Positions 43,168 through 52,658 of a DNA stretch of 64,000 bases are shown here, piece after piece (the stretch's first letter is position 1; every line of letters begins with the position of its first letter). The translations under genes and the position numbers were made by a program. This DNA comes from Phycisphaerales bacterium (GTDB taxonomy: Bacteria; Planctomycetota; Phycisphaerae; Phycisphaerales; UBA1924), in NCBI GenBank assembly GCA_007693785.1, contig RECY01000038.1, forward strand, positions 1 to 64,000, read 5' to 3'. Under the pieces are notes generated by a model that did no database searches, was not told the DNA's origin, and was given only the letters and a program-made list of their open reading frames with translations.

Positions 43168-44718
43168 CTACACGCCCGCCCCGGGTGACGCCGAGAGCCA
43201 CGCTTCCAGCAGCAGGAAGGCCGCGGCTGCGCCCATGATCGCCAGCCCCGCCCGCTTGGCTCGTCGGGCCGCCCGGTCCGCGGGGAGGGCGTCCAAGGGG
43301 CAGCCCACGGCCTGCCAGAGGCGGCGCTGGCGGTCCGCGATCGACCCGTGCCGGAACGTGAACCGGTGGATCGCGACGTGGTTCAGCACCGCGACCCGCT
43401 GCAAGGCCCCGGCCATCGCGGCCGCCGCCTCGGGCGTGACGTGCATCGCCTCGCCCGCGTCCGTCGCCGCATCTGTCTTTGTTTCGGAGGCGATCGAGGC
43501 CGTCTCGTCTGGTGTTCGGTCGTCCGCCGAACTCGTCATGTGCTGAGCCGCGAAGGCGTCCGCCTGGCGCTCGAACACGCGGCTCACCCACCCGAACACG
43601 GCACCCGCCACCACGAACGACGCGACCGCGATCACGAACCCAGCCCCCTCGCCCGAGCCAAACCTGCCCGGCAGCGCCGCCCCCAGCAGCGTGAGCCCCG
43701 ACCCAACGAGCACCAGCGTCCCCAGCACGGTTCCCGCGAGCCAAGGCATATGCCGACGGCGCACATGCGCGATCTCGTGCGCCATCACCGCCTCGACCTC
43801 GCGGCGCGTCAGCGCGTCCAGCAGCGCATCGGTCAGCAGCACATACCGCGCCGGCCAGACCAGTCCCAGCACCGCGCCGTTGATCATCGTCCCGCCCGTC
43901 CGCCAGACCAGCAGCCCGGAGATGCGCACCCTGTGGCGCGCGCACATCGCCCGCAGATGGTCCCGCAGCGGCCCGGGGCCCAGCGGCGTCGTGTCCCACA
44001 CGAACCGCAGGATCGCCGGCGCGAACGCCATCACCACCAGCACGCCCAGCATCTGCGCCAGCGGCGCCACCCACTCCGCCCGGTCCAGCGCCCACGCGGG
44101 CAGCGCCCGCCCCCAGAAGCCGCCGGGATCGCGGAAGGCCGCGTTGAACGCGACCGCGACGCCCTCGGCCCAGCTCAGGATCAGCGACATCGGCACCAGC
44201 ACGAACAGCAACTGGTGGCGCGTGGTCATCCAGACCGCCCGCGCCCGCCCCGGCGGGCGGTGCAGCGCCCGACCCTGCTCAAGCGCCCGGAAGAGCAACG
44301 CCTCGCGCACGCGCCGCTCGATCGGGTGCGACGCCCACCACGTCGCGATCATCGCCAGACACAGCGGGAGCAACGCCAGCAGTTCGTCGAGCAGCACCGG
44401 ATCGCCCACGAGCGCGCGCACGCGGTCGAGCCACCCGAAGCCCAGCACGCCGAGTGCGAACCACGCGGCGCACGCGGCCCGCGCGCCCCCGGCCCAACGC
44501 TCGGCCGCGATGACCTCCCGCGCGTCGCCCACGCGGTCCAGGCGACGCCCGCTCGCCCACGCCCGCGCCCACGCGAGCAGCACGAAGAACGCCATCGGCC
44601 CCAGTGTCCACGCCGTCGCCCCGCCGAACGATGAGGCGAACGACTCGAACGCCGGGCGCGACAGGCTCTCCCGCAGCACGATCGCCGCCACCGCGCCGAT
44701 CATGAGCAGGTGCACCAT
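43168..44718 (-). CDS. M48-family integral membrane metalloprotease
   Basis: A 516-residue membrane protein with about seven hydrophobic segments. Zinc motif HEIAH at residues 314-318 (VMAHEIAHVRRRH) and the third ligand in FERQAD are intact, as in HtpX/Ste24 relatives. The region 430-460 is a variable acidic insert, and another helix lies at the C-terminus (AIMGAAAAFLLLEAW). Such enzymes clear damaged membrane proteins. It follows a JAMM-like lipoprotein gene by 35 nt, so the two peptidase-like proteins are probably co-expressed. Start supported by GAGG 7 nt before ATG. Confidence 0.85.
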   Translation of the reverse strand: MVHLLMIGAVAAIVLRESLSRPAFESFASSFGGATAWTLGPMAFFVLLAWARAWASGRRLDRVGDAREVIAAERWAGGARAACAAWFALGVLGFGWLDRVRALVGDPVLLDELLALLPLCLAMIATWWASHPIERRVREALLFRALEQGRALHRPPGRARAVWMTTRHQLLFVLVPMSLILSWAEGVAVAFNAAFRDPGGFWGRALPAWALDRAEWVAPLAQMLGVLVVMAFAPAILRFVWDTTPLGPGPLRDHLRAMCARHRVRISGLLVWRTGGTMINGAVLGLVWPARYVLLTDALLDALTRREVEAVMAHEIAHVRRRHMPWLAGTVLGTLVLVGSGLTLLGAALPGRFGSGEGAGFVIAVASFVVAGAVFGWVSRVFERQADAFAAQHMTSSADDRTPDETASIASETKTDAATDAGEAMHVTPEAAAAMAGALQRVAVLNHVAIHRFTFRHGSIADRQRRLWQAVGCPLDALPADRAARRAKRAGLAIMGAAAAFLLLEAWLSASPGAGV

Positions 44719-44753
44719 CGGAAAGCCTCACTCCGTTCTGGCGGCGCCCGCGA

Positions 44754-46307
44754 TCACTCCCCGGGGCGCGTGTACGTTCCGAGGTCGATGACCACGCCGT
44801 CGGGCGTGAACACGTCCAGGTTCATCGTGTCCCGGTCGATGCTGGTGAAGACCACGCACGTGCGCCCGCTCCGGGCGGCGTAGGCGAAATCCCCCTCGCT
44901 CGGGCCCGCGAAGCGGCGCATATCGACGCGCTGGGCGTGGAGGTGGAAGTGCGCGAGCGCCCGGTCGCTCGCCTCGATCATCTCCGCCGAGGCGACGAAC
45001 ACGTCGTCGCCCCGGCGATCGCTCGCACGCGGCGGGTAGAGGCTGAGACGCCAGCGTCCGGGCGCGGCCCACTCCAGCGTGCCGCCGTATTCGGTCGTTG
45101 TGTCCTCGCGGTCGAGCTCGGCGAACTCGAAGATCGCCCGCTCGAAGCCGCCGTCCCGGAGCGCGTCATCGACGACCAGCACCGTGAGCGCGTCGGCCCA
45201 GCTCATCCGGTCGCTCCATGCTTCGAGGCTCTCGCTCCGAACCCCTCGGAACGAGGCCACGCCGTCGCGCCGCGGGAACCGGTCGCGTGACGAAGTGCGC
45301 GCCCCGATCTCCGCGAGCAGGTCTTCCCGGGTGCGGTCGAGCCAGTCCGAGCGGTGGGCGCTCGCCCAGCGGACCGCCTCGACGTGGCGGAGCTCGAGGC
45401 GCTCGCCTCGAGCCCCGTCCAGGCGGGCGATCGCGCGGGCGGCTTCTCGCCACCATGCCGCGTTGGCACCGTCCGAGGTGTCGCGCAGGCGGATCAGCCA
45501 GCGGAGCTCGTCGCTGGTCTTGGGCACCACTCGAAGGTCAGCCAGCCCCGCACGCAGCGTCTGCACCACCGCGAGCCCACCGGCATCGGCGACCGCGGCC
45601 TCCGACCCTTCCAGCAAACGCCCGCGCAGGCGACCGTCCGGGTCCAGGCGTTGAAGGAGGTCCCACGCGTCCATCCGCGTGCGCTCGCTCCAGTCCATGT
45701 CGTAGACGCCGCCCTCGATCTCGGGGCGGAGAAAGATCCCGAAGACAACCTCCGCCACGGGGCGATCCGGATGGAGGCGCGCGAGCGCCGCCCTCTCGGG
45801 GCGATCGGCGTCGCGGACGCGGGGGCGCTGCTGGGCATAGCTGCGCACCAGCGAGGGTGTGAACTCTGTCCAGCCGCGGTCGGCCGCCGTCGTCGCGATG
45901 AACTCGACGATCGGGAGCAGAGGCTCGCGCCAGATCAGCATCGACGCCATCTGGCGGGCGTCGGCCTCGCCCGACGGGCTCGGGTCGTTGAGCAACGCCT
46001 CCAGGCACGCCAGCCGGACCGGCACCGGGGCCTGACGCGACCACGCGAGAGATTTCATGGTTTCCCGGGTCGCCGTCCGGTCGCCTTCGCCCTCGCGAAC
46101 GCGGTCCCACGCCTGCTCGGCGGCGGCGACGCGCCGCCCGACGCTCGCCGTCGGGTCGCGGAGTTGCCCGAGCGGGTCGCTCAGGTGCGGCGAGCCGCCG
46201 CACCCGGTCAGGAGCAGGGCGGCAAGCACCATCGGCACCACCCACGCCCCCGCCAACGACTTGGCGCGTGGGGATCCGGGCCCGTTCACGTCCGTGCGCA
46301 TCGTCAT
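44754..46307 (-). CDS. Lipoprotein with helical repeats and a JAMM-like C-terminal domain
   Basis: A 517-residue predicted lipoprotein (LLLTGC). The middle (about 45-350) is alpha-helical with HEAT-like spacing. The C-terminal 120 residues contain a JAB1/MPN/Mov34 (JAMM) metal-site pattern: EYGG with Glu406, then HFHLHA (His455, His457), then PSEGD (Ser470, Asp473), followed by FAYAARSGRTCVVFTS, which is typical after SxxD in that fold. So it may be a zinc-dependent protease acting in the periplasm. The loop between HxH and SxxD is longer than usual, so this is an inference. The ATG has no ribosome site; TACACT lies 6 nt upstream. Confidence 0.6.
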   Translation of the reverse strand: MTMRTDVNGPGSPRAKSLAGAWVVPMVLAALLLTGCGGSPHLSDPLGQLRDPTASVGRRVAAAEQAWDRVREGEGDRTATRETMKSLAWSRQAPVPVRLACLEALLNDPSPSGEADARQMASMLIWREPLLPIVEFIATTAADRGWTEFTPSLVRSYAQQRPRVRDADRPERAALARLHPDRPVAEVVFGIFLRPEIEGGVYDMDWSERTRMDAWDLLQRLDPDGRLRGRLLEGSEAAVADAGGLAVVQTLRAGLADLRVVPKTSDELRWLIRLRDTSDGANAAWWREAARAIARLDGARGERLELRHVEAVRWASAHRSDWLDRTREDLLAEIGARTSSRDRFPRRDGVASFRGVRSESLEAWSDRMSWADALTVLVVDDALRDGGFERAIFEFAELDREDTTTEYGGTLEWAAPGRWRLSLYPPRASDRRGDDVFVASAEMIEASDRALAHFHLHAQRVDMRRFAGPSEGDFAYAARSGRTCVVFTSIDRDTMNLDVFTPDGVVIDLGTYTRPGE

Positions 46308-46938: not shown

Positions 46939-47145
46939 ATGCTGGTCATCACACGTCGGGAAGGCGAAGAAGTGGTCATCGGAGACCCGCGCAACCCGCT
47001 CGGTGTGGTCCGTATCGCGTCGGTGAAGGGCGAGCGTGTGCGCGTCGCCTTCGACTTCCCTCGGGACGTCGATATTCACCGCCGCGAGATCGCGGATCAG
47101 ATCAAGAGCGAGGAACCCGCGGTCATCGGTGCCATCAAGCCCTGA
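46939..47145 (+). CDS. csrA: Carbon storage regulator, mRNA-binding
   Basis: A 68-residue dimeric RNA-binding protein that represses or stabilises mRNAs by binding GGA motifs. The N-terminal MLVITRREGEEVVIGD is canonical, and the RNA-contacting region RVRVAFDFPRDVDIHRREI is present (VAxDxPxxxxVxRxEI pattern). The ATG has GGAG 7 nt upstream. The frame is open for about 95 codons upstream, but that part contains the promoter and is not protein-like. Context gives no targets; planctomycete CsrA is often linked to flagellar genes, none of which are here. Confidence 0.93.
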   Translation: MLVITRREGEEVVIGDPRNPLGVVRIASVKGERVRVAFDFPRDVDIHRREIADQIKSEEPAVIGAIKP

Positions 47146-48031: not shown

Positions 48032-49081
48032 TTATGGTGCGACGACGTAGACTTGGCGGAGTGGGAATCGGTGACGGATGTCGGCACTCAGAGATTCATA
48101 ACTTCGTATAAAGAGTTCGACAAACCGATCCGCATCGATAAGAATGATATTCGCGTCGTTCTGTTCGGTGTGGCGAGCATCTGTCGTAAACCCGCCAAGA
48201 CTGATGAGAATCTCCTTCTCGCCAGTGTTCAGAGTGCCGCGGAGTTGCTTGACCACCGGGGCGCCGGTCGTTGAGACACCACTCTTGGCCTGGATCTTCA
48301 GGATCGGCGGTGTGACACCAAGTGGGTCGGCATGCGCAATGACGTCGACGCCGAGGTCGCGGGTGCCTTGCTGCACCGTCGCTGTGTAGCCCAGGGCACG
48401 GAACACCGCTGCGACCACTTCCTCGAAGTCCTGAGCCGTATTGCTCCAGCTTCGCACAAGGTGGTCTTTCGTGAATTGGATTACCTCTTCTGCCGCAATA
48501 GCTGCGTCCTCCTCGCTCTCCTCGGTTTCTGCAGTTTGGAGCGTGTCGTCAGCCAAGTCGGGAGCGGGCTGTTTCCCTCTTGAGCCGTTGCCGGACAACA
48601 AGCCGCGAACCTCATCGAGGTGATCATCGGAGAGTGATATTGACGTGAAGCTGCCGAAGCTGCGAAGGGCGGACTGGCTGAATCGAACTCGCGGCACGTC
48701 TTTAAGCACCCATTCGACACGTCGTACGTTGCAGTAATCCAGCTCGCGGAGTTCTTTGTCCTCCGACCATTCGTAGTCGCCTGTGATCTTTCCGATCATG
48801 ATGTTTCGTGAATTCTTAATTGGGTAGACAATCGGCTCGCCGACTCGAAGCTCGTGGGCGAACCGGTAGGCTTGGATGAATGAAGCGCTGACCGACGCCT
48901 TTGATTTCTGCGGGAAAGCACGCTCGTAAGCCGCTCGCATCTTCTCGGGAGTGTCGTATGGGCTTAGGTCACCGATCCGGGTCCACCCAACGCAGATGAA
49001 GCCCTCCTTTTGAGCGCGTGCAGCGATTTTTTGGTGATTCGAAATGTGGATGACCCAAAGACGACTCGCGGACTCGAACAT
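48032..49081 (-). CDS. Type IV restriction endonuclease, EVE-like domain plus Mrr nuclease domain
   Basis: A 349-residue protein with two domains. The N-terminal 110 residues (ASRLWVIHISNHQKIAARA, VYPIKNSRNIMIGKI) look like an EVE/PUA-type modified-base reader. A helical linker with an acidic patch follows, then an Mrr-type PD-(D/E)xK nuclease: FEEVVAAVFRALGY, GTRDLGVDVIAH (Asp) and LKIQAKSG (QxK), all catalytic residues present. It probably cuts DNA carrying modified bases and so defends against modified phages. Base composition is lower in GC than the neighbours, as expected for a mobile defence gene. GAGG lies 6 nt before the ATG. Confidence 0.8.
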   Translation of the reverse strand: MFESASRLWVIHISNHQKIAARAQKEGFICVGWTRIGDLSPYDTPEKMRAAYERAFPQKSKASVSASFIQAYRFAHELRVGEPIVYPIKNSRNIMIGKITGDYEWSEDKELRELDYCNVRRVEWVLKDVPRVRFSQSALRSFGSFTSISLSDDHLDEVRGLLSGNGSRGKQPAPDLADDTLQTAETEESEEDAAIAAEEVIQFTKDHLVRSWSNTAQDFEEVVAAVFRALGYTATVQQGTRDLGVDVIAHADPLGVTPPILKIQAKSGVSTTGAPVVKQLRGTLNTGEKEILISLGGFTTDARHTEQNDANIILIDADRFVELFIRSYESLSADIRHRFPLRQVYVVAP

Positions 49082-49261
49082 GGCTCACCTCGCTATGGGC
49101 TGATCTGGGGACGTGCTCTCGGGTTGCGAACAGGCGCTCACACGGGGGAAAGTCGTAAAGCGTGGCGAGCCCTCAACAAGGCCGAGTCCGCCATATCCTT
49201 GTACTACCCCTGTATCGGCCGAACAACTCCCCGGCTTTCGATTCGGGGAATCACTTCGGCG

Positions 49262-49267
49262 TACACT
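49262..49267 (+). promoter_or_regulatory. Candidate -10 hexamer for the topoisomerase VI genes
   Basis: TACACT on the plus strand, about 62 nt before the subunit B start, in the 247-bp gap from the divergent restriction gene. The -35 is unclear. Confidence 0.3.
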
Positions 49268-49328
49268 TGCCCCCAAAGCCCCACCCCCGGCGGAGCCGGG
49301 CCATGTCCCCCCTCGCGAAGGAGCGCGT

Positions 49329-51317
49329 ATGGCGAAGACCACGGAGCGACGCAAGCAGACCGCCGAGACGATGGCGGGGCGGCAGCGTGAGATCTCCGTC
49401 AGCGAGTTCTTCGCCAAGAACCGGCACCTGCTCGGCTTCGACAACCCGCGCAAGGCCCTGCTGACCACGGTCAAGGAGGCCGTGGACAACGCGCTGGACG
49501 CCTGCGAGGAGGCGGGGATCCTGCCGGATATCACGGTGGAACTGGAGGAACTCGCCCCGCCGCTGAGCGCCAGCAAGAGCGGGCGGTACCGGGTGACGAT
49601 CACGGACAACGGGCCGGGGATCGTGCGCCGCCAGGTCGAGAACATCTTCGGCAAGCTGCTGTACGGGTCGAAGTTTCACCGCCTCAAGATGTCCCGCGGG
49701 CAGCAGGGGATCGGCATCTCGGCGGCCGGCATGTACGGGCTCATGACCACCGGCAAGCCGATGGTCATCACCACCCGCCCCAACAAGAAAAAACCGGCCC
49801 ACCACATCGAGCTGGCGATGGACACCAGCAAGAACCAGCCCGAGGTCACCGTCGATATCGAGACCGATGACTTCCCCGAGACCACCACCGGCACGGGCAC
49901 CCGCGTCGCGATCGAGCTCGAAGCCCGCTACCAGCGCGGCAAGGCATCGGTCGACACCTACCTCGAGCAGACGGCGATCGCCAACCCGCACGCCTCGATC
50001 ACGTTCATCCCTCCGCGCCGCGCCGGCTCGCCCGCGGAGGACCCGGCGAGCGAGATGCTCGCGGCGATCGAGGACGCCGCCGAGGGCCCGCCGGACCTGA
50101 GCGAGCACACGATCGTCGACGGCAGGATCCTGATGCCGCGGACGATCGACGAGCTCCCGCCGGAGACGCAGGAGATCAAGCCGCACCCCTACGGCGTCGA
50201 GCTTGGCAACTTCCTTCGGATGCTCAAGAGCACGGACGAGAAGCAGCTGACGGGTTTTTTCAAGAACGAGTTCTGCCGCGTGACGCCGCCGATCGTGAAG
50301 CGGATCACCGACGCGGCGAGCACGAAGGGGAGCACGTTCAGCGGGCAGACGTGGCTGAAGAGCCTGAGCGCGAGCGACTCGGAGCGTCTGTACCGGGCGA
50401 TGCAGGAGGTGAAGCTGCTGAACCCGCCGACGGACTGCCTGAGCCCGATCGGCGTGCGCCAGATGCTCGCGGGGCTGATGAAGGGCGTGCGGGGCGAGTT
50501 CTACGCAGCCAGCACGCGTCCGGCGGCGGTCTACCGGGGCAACCCGTTCCAGATCGAGGCGGCGATCGCCTTCGGCGGGGACCTGCCGGGCGATCAGCCG
50601 GCGCGGGTGCTGCGGTTCGCCAACCGCGTGCCGCTGCTGTACCAGCAGTCGGCGTGCAGCGCGTTCAAGAGCGTGACGGAGACGGCGTGGAAGAACTATG
50701 GGCTCAGCCAGCCGCGCGGCGGCGCGCCGGTGGGCCCGCTGGTGATCGCGATCCACATGGCGAGCGTCTGGGTGCCGTTCACGAGCGAGAGCAAGGAAGC
50801 GATCGCGGACTACGACGAGATCCGCAAGGAGATGAAGCTCGCGTTGCAAGAGTGCGGGCGGAAGCTGGGGATCTACCTGCGCCGCCGCCAGCGGATGCGC
50901 CGCGACGCCGAGAAACGCGACGTCTTCGAGCGGTACATCGGCGAGATTGCCAAGGCGTGCCACGCGATCACGGGGACGGACGCGGCGGAGCTGTACGAAT
51001 CGCTGATGCGCCAGGCGCAGCGCCGGACGGAGATCGCGGATGCCGTGCTGGATGAGGACGGCAAGATCGTTGGCTATCAGAACGAGCGTAACGGGCTGGA
51101 GAAGGACGAGGGGGTGGTGATTCTGGACCGGAGCGCCACGCCTTCCGCTTCGACAGCCGCGGCCGCGCCCCAACCCGCGGCCGACGGGGCGGATGAGCCG
51201 GTGGAGACGCCCGTCGTGACGGAGCGTCCGAAGAAGAAGATCTTGAAGAAGGTGAAGAAGAAGGTCCGCAAGAAAGCCGGGGCGGCCAAGGGCGACGACA
51301 GCCTCTTCGGCGCGTGA
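49329..51317 (+). CDS. top6B: DNA topoisomerase VI subunit B
   Basis: ATPase subunit of the type IIB topoisomerase that passes one duplex through another. The 662-residue protein has the GHKL ATP site: EAVDNALDACEEAG (N-box), ITDNGPGIV (G1) and SRGQQGIGISAAGMYG (G2), preceded by the strap-like start SEFFAKNRHLLGFDNP. The H2TH and transducer regions follow, with RVPLLYQQSACSAF and the long helix IRKEMKLALQECGRKLGIYL. The C-terminus ends in a Lys-rich tail (KKKILKKVKKKVRKKAGAAK). AAGGAG lies 5 nt before ATG 49329. Topo VI is mainly archaeal and plant; subunit A follows 111 nt later. Confidence 0.95.
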   Translation: MAKTTERRKQTAETMAGRQREISVSEFFAKNRHLLGFDNPRKALLTTVKEAVDNALDACEEAGILPDITVELEELAPPLSASKSGRYRVTITDNGPGIVRRQVENIFGKLLYGSKFHRLKMSRGQQGIGISAAGMYGLMTTGKPMVITTRPNKKKPAHHIELAMDTSKNQPEVTVDIETDDFPETTTGTGTRVAIELEARYQRGKASVDTYLEQTAIANPHASITFIPPRRAGSPAEDPASEMLAAIEDAAEGPPDLSEHTIVDGRILMPRTIDELPPETQEIKPHPYGVELGNFLRMLKSTDEKQLTGFFKNEFCRVTPPIVKRITDAASTKGSTFSGQTWLKSLSASDSERLYRAMQEVKLLNPPTDCLSPIGVRQMLAGLMKGVRGEFYAASTRPAAVYRGNPFQIEAAIAFGGDLPGDQPARVLRFANRVPLLYQQSACSAFKSVTETAWKNYGLSQPRGGAPVGPLVIAIHMASVWVPFTSESKEAIADYDEIRKEMKLALQECGRKLGIYLRRRQRMRRDAEKRDVFERYIGEIAKACHAITGTDAAELYESLMRQAQRRTEIADAVLDEDGKIVGYQNERNGLEKDEGVVILDRSATPSASTAAAAPQPAADGADEPVETPVVTERPKKKILKKVKKKVRKKAGAAKGDDSLFGA

Positions 51318-51327
51318 TGCCTCCCGA

Positions 51328-51402
51328 CGAGCCGCAACCGTGAGGGAGCGGTCCCGACGCCAACCAACGATGCGGACCGCTCCCTCACGGTCGCGGCTCG
51401 TT
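51328..51402. repeat. 28-bp inverted repeat between the two topoisomerase VI genes
   Basis: Arms 51328-51355 (ACGAGCCGCAACCGTGAGGG...) and 51375-51402 pair over 28 bp with a single mismatch, loop 19 nt. The arm sequence resembles a dispersed planctomycete intergenic repeat I recall. In the mRNA it would form a very stable hairpin between the coding regions, which could attenuate or protect the downstream message. Confidence 0.85.
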
Positions 51403-51428
51403 CAGATCCAGATCCTTGAGCAACACCC

Positions 51429-52658
51429 ATGGCGAAGAAAACCACAAAGAAAACCGCCGCACGCACGCCGGGCAAGAAGTTTTCCAAGAAAGCGCCCAGC
51501 TCGCGGAACGTCAAGACCGGCGACGCTGCCAAGGCGACGCCGCGTGTTCGTTCCAAGTCGGCCGCCGACCGCGACGTGCGCACGTCTGAGGCGATCGGCA
51601 CGCTGGCCGAGAGCGTGGTGAAGTCCGCGTTGTCGGGGCGGGAGCCGAAGGTGGAGGTGCCGACGCGGTCGGCGAACAACACCAAGTGGAACAAGAGCCG
51701 CGGGATCCTGCAGATGGGCTCGGCCGTGCAGGAACGCCAGCTCTTCAACATGGGGCAGGCCCGCAAGTTCATGCAGACGCTGCTCCACGGGCAGGGCATT
51801 CGGCGCCTCATCGAGCAGGACAAGACGCTCAGCCTCCGCGGGATGTTCTACAGCGGGCTCCACACCATTCAAGGAACCAAAGAAAAGACCTTCGACGATC
51901 AGACCGAGTCCGACGCGATCCTCGAGGACCTCGAGGTCACGCTCGGCAGCCTCCGTGAAGAGCTGCACATCTTCGCCAAAAAACGCGGCACCATGGTCGG
52001 GAACATCACCGTCATCGACTCCGGCGACGAGATCGACTGCCGACGCATGGGCACCGGCGGCTACGCGATCCCGAGCATCTGCGAGCCGGACGTGATCCAG
52101 TTCGAGAAGGTCGAAGCCGACTTCGTGCTGCACGTCGAGAAGGACACCGTCTGGCAGCGGTTCAACGAGGACAAGTTCTGGAAGACGCACAACTGCATCC
52201 TGACCGAGGGCAGCGGGCAGCCGCCGCGGGGCGTGCGACGGTTGCTGCACCGGCTCAATAAGGAGCACGGGCTGCCGATCATCTGCCTGCTCGATTGCGA
52301 CCCGTGGGGGCACTACATCTACAGCGTCATCAAGCAGGGCTCGATCTCGCTCGCGTTCGAGAGCGAGCGCCTGGCGATCCCGGACGCCAAGTTCCTCGGC
52401 ATCCGCTCCAAGGACTACGAGGCGTGCGAGCTGAGCGACGACGTGCAGATCGAGCTCAACGACCGCGACATCGCGCGGGCGAAGCAGATCATGGCCTACC
52501 CGTGGTTCGACGGGCACCGGGGGTGGAAGAACGAGATCGAGAAGATGCTCCGCAACGGGTTCAAGATGGAGGTCGAGTCGCTGATCACCAAGGACATCAG
52601 CTACGTGACGGAGACGTACGTCCCGGAGCGGCTGGCGGCCGAGGACTGGCTGGTCTGA
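51429..52658 (+). CDS. top6A: DNA topoisomerase VI subunit A (Spo11-like)
   Basis: DNA-cleaving subunit, related to the meiotic Spo11. The 409-residue protein has a Lys/Ala-rich N-terminal extension of about 75 residues (KKTTKKTAARTPGKKFSKK), then the CAP domain with catalytic Tyr141 in LRGMFYSGLHTI, and the Toprim domain with Glu237 (LHVEKDTVWQRF) and Asp289/Asp291 (CLLDCDPWGHYIY). The closing segment AKQIMAYPWFDGHRGW is typical. All residues for double-strand cleavage are present, so the enzyme should be active. It is co-directional with subunit B. Confidence 0.95.
   Translation: MAKKTTKKTAARTPGKKFSKKAPSSRNVKTGDAAKATPRVRSKSAADRDVRTSEAIGTLAESVVKSALSGREPKVEVPTRSANNTKWNKSRGILQMGSAVQERQLFNMGQARKFMQTLLHGQGIRRLIEQDKTLSLRGMFYSGLHTIQGTKEKTFDDQTESDAILEDLEVTLGSLREELHIFAKKRGTMVGNITVIDSGDEIDCRRMGTGGYAIPSICEPDVIQFEKVEADFVLHVEKDTVWQRFNEDKFWKTHNCILTEGSGQPPRGVRRLLHRLNKEHGLPIICLLDCDPWGHYIYSVIKQGSISLAFESERLAIPDAKFLGIRSKDYEACELSDDVQIELNDRDIARAKQIMAYPWFDGHRGWKNEIEKMLRNGFKMEVESLITKDISYVTETYVPERLAAEDWLV

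Follow-up and report, generated by a model that had tools for sequence, protein, structure and literature searches.

JAMM enzymes are familiar as peptidases of the ubiquitin type that work inside cells. Can the same fold, and perhaps the same chemistry, serve outside the cytoplasm of a bacterium? The question is raised by a lipoprotein gene in a 64,000-nucleotide stretch of DNA (henceforth the window; positions 1 to 64,000 of contig RECY01000038.1, assembly GCA_007693785.1) from a member of the planctomycete order Phycisphaerales. The gene is followed by one for an M48 membrane protease, and the C-terminus of the lipoprotein carries residues reminiscent of a JAMM metal site. Judging from fold prediction and sequence comparison, we consider it moderately probable that the protein is exported and anchored to the membrane and joins a helical solenoid to a zinc hydrolase domain of JAMM fold, with the activity itself a prediction. 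Computed directly are its order-wide conservation, the predicted MPN fold, the invariance of metal-site residues, the conserved export signal and the gene pair. The parts of the gene are as follows:

44754–46307, minus strand: lipoprotein gene, a 517-amino-acid open reading frame (ORF) with an N-terminal helical solenoid and a C-terminal JAMM/MPN-fold domain
46200–46307, minus strand: predicted signal peptide and lipobox LTGC36, with residue 36 as the predicted lipidated Cys
45291–46175, minus strand: predicted helical-repeat (HEAT-like) solenoid, about residues 45–339 (AlphaFold2 predicted local distance difference test score, pLDDT, 93.5)
44766–45200, minus strand: predicted JAMM/MPN-fold domain, about residues 370–514 (AlphaFold2 pLDDT 94.7 for the domain alone)
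45090–45092, minus strand: Glu406 of EYGG, predicted catalytic base (conserved in 90/90 orthologues)
44937–44945, minus strand: His455-Leu-His457, predicted zinc ligands (90/90 and 87/90), aligned to the HxH of Prok-JAB
44898–44900, minus strand: Ser470, the JAMM serine position, unconserved in the orthologue alignment
44889–44891, minus strand: Asp473, predicted third zinc ligand (90/90)

Whole-protein searches covered 101 genomes from the same family and order, the window's own included, and recovered a homologue in 90 of them; the gene is usually single-copy within the order. At the level of the class, 110 of 298 genomes hold one, and the named relatives found in a separate scan belong mostly to Phycisphaerales or Phycisphaerae. 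The window protein begins with MTMRTDVNGPGSPRAKSLAGAWVVPMVLAALLLTGC36GGS, that is, with the signal peptide and lipobox cysteine of a bacterial lipoprotein. A Cys occupies the residue-36 column in 84 of the 90 orthologues; 70 of these 84 also display the lipobox pattern, and four complete orthologues that lack the Cys retain a hydrophobic, signal-like N-terminus. The conserved signal peptide and lipobox thus predict that the mature lipoprotein resides outside the cytoplasm.

AlphaFold2 modelled the mature protein (pLDDT 93.5) with a helical solenoid in its N-terminal part and a compact alpha/beta domain behind it. Structural matches to the solenoid are designed and natural helical-repeat proteins (Z up to 12.7); its resemblance is to HEAT/ARM-type repeats, to be read with the caution usual for helical repeats, and Pfam HEAT_2 matched this region in 2 of 41 members, with a best E of 0.0016. 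Helical repeats swamped the full-length fold search and made it uninformative on the C-terminal domain, which was therefore folded alone. In the resulting model the elements run helix-helix-strand-strand-helix-strand-helix followed by three strands; the HxH ends the strand before the last helix and the SxxD lies on that helix, so that the sheet, HxH and SxxD of the MPN core are all in place. The top Foldseek matches were CfBRCC36 (E 4.5e-4) and PfJAMM1 (E 9.1e-4), both at prob 1.00, and JAB-domain proteins were also among the matches to viral models. VIA-align ranked PfJAMM1 best (Z 9.7, root-mean-square deviation 3.3 over 114 residues); the leaders upon realignment were PfJAMM1, DSY2949, CfBRCC36, BRISC and Rpn11, and the rows beneath PfJAMM1 were mostly BRCC36/BRISC, Rpn11, CSN5, AMSH, bacterial BubCD and Cap3. 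Template modelling scores (TM-scores) were modest, at about 0.5, which is consistent with a divergent JAMM/MPN member. A first-pass annotation of this DNA had proposed a JAMM-like lipoprotein and named an unrelated predicted fold as grounds for abandoning the idea; the best PDB matches of the predicted domain are instead JAMM/MPN proteins.

The same annotation had picked out E406YGG, H455LH457 and S470EGD473 in JAMM order, and all lie at these residues. Their conservation was followed in an alignment of the 90 orthologues, which are roughly 27–50% identical to the window protein and had been gathered by whole-protein similarity, the motif being no selection criterion. E406, H455 and D473 are invariant, as are G408, G409, D399 and P469; H457 is retained in 87 sequences, and D434 and D498 in 89 each. 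Because this pattern emerges from similarity-collected sequences, the motif is not a product of chance, and the His and Asp residues, whose loss in orthologues was to count against the proposal, are retained. The upstream Glu, the HxH ligands and the SxxD Asp of the JAMM/MPN+ family are accordingly all present.

A PDB sequence search with the family profiles returned nothing significant. A link at the level of sequence was found by profile comparison. Genuine Prok-JAB domains from relatives were gathered into a profile and compared with the family profile using hhalign, which placed the E, the two H, the S and the D opposite their counterparts in Prok-JAB. The best local alignment (pairwise P 0.0044) spans the HxH to SxxD region and contains an insertion of 5 residues, and its score exceeds those of all 150 column shuffles; the match of E406 to the JAMM Glu falls in an extended, low-confidence part of the alignment. 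Fold and sequence evidence agree on JAMM-fold identity. The proposal of a JAMM-like lipoprotein is hence backed by the predicted JAB/MPN fold, by conserved ligands in JAMM register and by the conserved signal peptide and lipobox.

Several results weigh against a JAMM-type zinc hydrolase. In a Pfam scan, no family, Prok-JAB (PF14464) and DUF4329 (PF14220) included, rose above its cut-off for the window lipoprotein. DUF4329 gave the best Pfam match of any C-domain member (E 0.00097), a weak one shared by few members, and Prok-JAB weakly matched 3 of 72 members, none near significance (best E 0.015). The hhalign probability against Prok-JAB was just 7.9%. That no family model recognises the lipoprotein is what one would expect if a different fold had acquired an E..HxH..SxxD pattern by accident, an explanation we regard as extremely improbable, given that fold model, profile register and invariance concur. 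It was rejected as contradicted by the predicted MPN fold, the hhalign register and the structural matches.

The metal site itself supplies the remaining objections to a hydrolase. The annotated "SxxD" stood only in part: D473 is invariant and S470 is present in the window protein, but residue 470 is Ser in just 36 of the 90 orthologues, the others having Gly (44), His (9) or Ala (1), and the tree requires five or more changes between these states. The true motif is [SGH]xxD, and the conserved SxxD Ser of JAMM/MPN+ proteins is not a property of this family. With the oxyanion serine replaced by Gly, His or Ala in 54 of 90 sequences, catalysis may differ from that of a canonical JAMM enzyme or be weak, and the absence of this serine from most orthologues is the main reason to doubt canonical JAMM catalysis. 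The Ser-to-Gly/His substitution also constitutes a natural test of how JAMM catalysis works. Three orthologues have Gln in place of H457. Elsewhere in the class, the C-terminal domain of other families often persists with E406 and/or H455 replaced (loci L071, L074 and L085 keep the site), indicating that the fold can serve without the metal site.

These observations, together with the linkage of the lipoprotein to an intact M48 protease, speak for the chief alternative, in which the MPN domain binds metal and does not catalyse. It would then act as a scaffold or regulator, for instance as an adaptor for the M48 protein, with the metal in a structural or sensory role. In JAMM enzymes the Glu is the catalytic base and not a direct metal ligand; the 90 sequences, however, conserve E406 as strictly as the ligands, which suits catalysis better than a structural metal, and we judge the non-catalytic alternative somewhat unlikely.

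More distant relatives illustrate both the erosion of the site and its retention. Many class-level relatives among loci L072–L090 (families f9 and f15) have a JAMM-like domain with E406 and/or H455 replaced, several of them beside a gene resembling tyrosyl-tRNA synthetase; these site-eroded relatives are probable pseudoenzymes. Elsewhere in the phylum, family f93 (L246–L248) has the same C-terminal domain behind a different N-terminal region. All three members keep HxH, with E aligned and D following after a small insertion; two start with a lipobox-like segment, and the ORF of the third is cut at a contig end. Since f93 proteins are apparently exported with a different N-terminal part, the exported context is not peculiar to one architecture.

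How the family relates to characterised systems bears on its possible function. By fold and ligands the domain is of the same kind as JAMM proteins, yet it is set apart by its location, motif spacing, unconserved serine, architecture and gene neighbours. With the archaeal JAMM1 of P. furiosus (PfJAMM1, PDB 5ld9/5lda) and the BRCC36/Rpn11 MPN+ deubiquitinases it shares the fold and the JAMM-profile register of E, HxH and D, but identity is mostly 10–18%, the lipoprotein is exported, carries the 5-residue insertion between HxH and SxxD, does not conserve the Ser and has no known ubiquitin-like partner. Prok-JAB domains show the same order of catalytic residues, whereas the proline of their HxHP is Ala or Val in the lipoprotein family, and the canonical HxH-x7-SxxD spacing is x12 in the window protein. 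True Prok-JAB proteins, separate from the lipoprotein family, occur in 20 of the 101 genomes; none is present in the window's genome, where ubiquitin-like genes were not sought further.

Precedents for JAB domains outside the cytoplasm exist among toxins and viruses. According to a 2012 survey, prokaryotic JABs identified before it were all intracellular, the exceptions being its own toxin JABs and secreted viral versions (PMC3482391); phage tail proteins combine JAB with NlpC/P60 (PMC1779556). The Tox-JAB-2 group, which partly overlaps DUF4329, occurs in proteins exported from the cytoplasm and has the residues E, H[ST]H, S and D (PMC3482391), and the lipoprotein resembles it in these residues, in export and in its best Pfam match. 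Tox-JAB-2 domains are, however, toxin modules accompanied by immunity genes, whereas the lipoprotein gene is near-universal and usually single-copy in its order, has a helical solenoid in front and shows no toxin-delivery domain or immunity gene. The divergence of the family and its weak Pfam similarity to DUF4329 would also fit an exported hydrolase of JAMM fold with an activity other than that of a peptidase, for instance a nuclease, or an amidase acting on a small envelope molecule. This we find decidedly improbable: the solved fold neighbours are mostly deubiquitinase-type JAMMs, and it would be strange for a housekeeping nuclease to work outside the cytoplasm.

The partner gene encodes a protein with the hallmarks of family M48 (64 bits against a PF01435 cut-off of 20.3):

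43168–44718, minus strand: M48 membrane metallopeptidase of 516 amino acids with several hydrophobic segments (Pfam PF01435, E 2.1e-17)
43765–43779, minus strand: HEIAH zinc motif, residues 314–318 (H/E/H in 89/90 homologue rows)
43570–43572, minus strand: third M48 ligand Glu383 (E383 and D387 in 86/90 homologue rows)

The few missing residues among the homologue rows are alignment gaps. As the first-pass annotation had stated, this HEIAH gene follows the lipoprotein gene after 35 nucleotides (44719–44753). Presence of both genes was counted at E ≤ 1e-20, incomplete genomes and assemblies included: among 79 genomes with both, 57 have the M48 gene directly downstream, 4 have it nearby and 18 have it elsewhere, while the lipoprotein occurs without a detected M48 in 11 genomes and M48 alone in 6, some of these assemblies being incomplete. 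The pair is therefore conserved, with M48 catalytic residues intact. The protein shares HExxH, the third-ligand Glu and its membrane character with HtpX-like M48 peptidases, but falls far short of the equivalog cut-offs of all HtpX and BepA models (the best NCBIfam HtpX model gives 31.4 bits where 369 are required). The metal site of HtpX faces the cytosol, and hydropathy and positive-inside loop charge suggest that the same is probably true here, in which case the lipoprotein and M48 would probably act on opposite sides of the membrane. The "two-protease envelope system" earlier proposed finds partial support: the pairing is conserved, but the genes are separable and the M48 site is probably cytosolic.

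The conserved neighbours of the lipoprotein gene are M48, DapF, CsrA and SppA. A DapF gene (Pfam PF01678) comes after M48 in 37 of 54 loci with an adjacent M48 and directly after the lipoprotein gene in 9 loci without one; M48 is thus tied to DapF as much as to the lipoprotein. Family f6 has another arrangement: genes for an S49 SppA-like protease and for a small membrane protein without a Pfam match precede the lipoprotein gene (e.g., L140 and L159), and in several of these loci M48-DapF lies 3–5 kb off on the other strand. At the window locus, an M20 peptidase and arginine-catabolism-type genes come next.

From fold, invariance and this gene context we infer how the proposed zinc hydrolase might work. 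The solenoid would probably recruit a substrate or partner, and the JAMM domain would bind zinc through H455, H457 and D473, with E406 as the base activating a metal-bound water. Most likely the domain would hydrolyse an amide of the peptide or isopeptide type within the envelope. Candidate substrates are cross-links through side-chain amines, such as the meso-diaminopimelate (meso-DAP) bond of peptidoglycan or a protein isopeptide, both suggested solely by known JAMM chemistry and the DapF neighbour. The adjacent M48 protein would probably be co-expressed and share a housekeeping process with the lipoprotein, perhaps acting from the opposite face of the membrane. The fullest version, an order-wide extracytoplasmic JAMM isopeptidase that cuts meso-DAP or protein isopeptide cross-links and is coupled with M48 across the membrane, seems to us doubtful. 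A literature search largely confined to papers free of subscription, which cannot prove absence, turned up no account of a lipoprotein JAMM with a housekeeping role. A JAMM that is lipid-anchored and nearly universal within a planctomycete order would imply a housekeeping use of JAMM chemistry outside the cytoplasm.

Further genes of the window deserve brief mention. A CsrA gene (46945–47145, plus strand) is divergent to the lipoprotein gene and is its upstream neighbour in many relatives. A protein with an Mrr-type restriction endonuclease domain is encoded at 48032–49081 on the minus strand (Pfam Mrr_cat, E 2.7e-21). Topoisomerase VI is mainly an archaeal-type enzyme; in this bacterium, the stretch 49113–52658 on the plus strand holds a gene for its subunit B (Pfam Topo-VIb_trans, E 2e-57) and, adjoining it, an ORF that on visual inspection resembles a Spo11/Top6A-type subunit.
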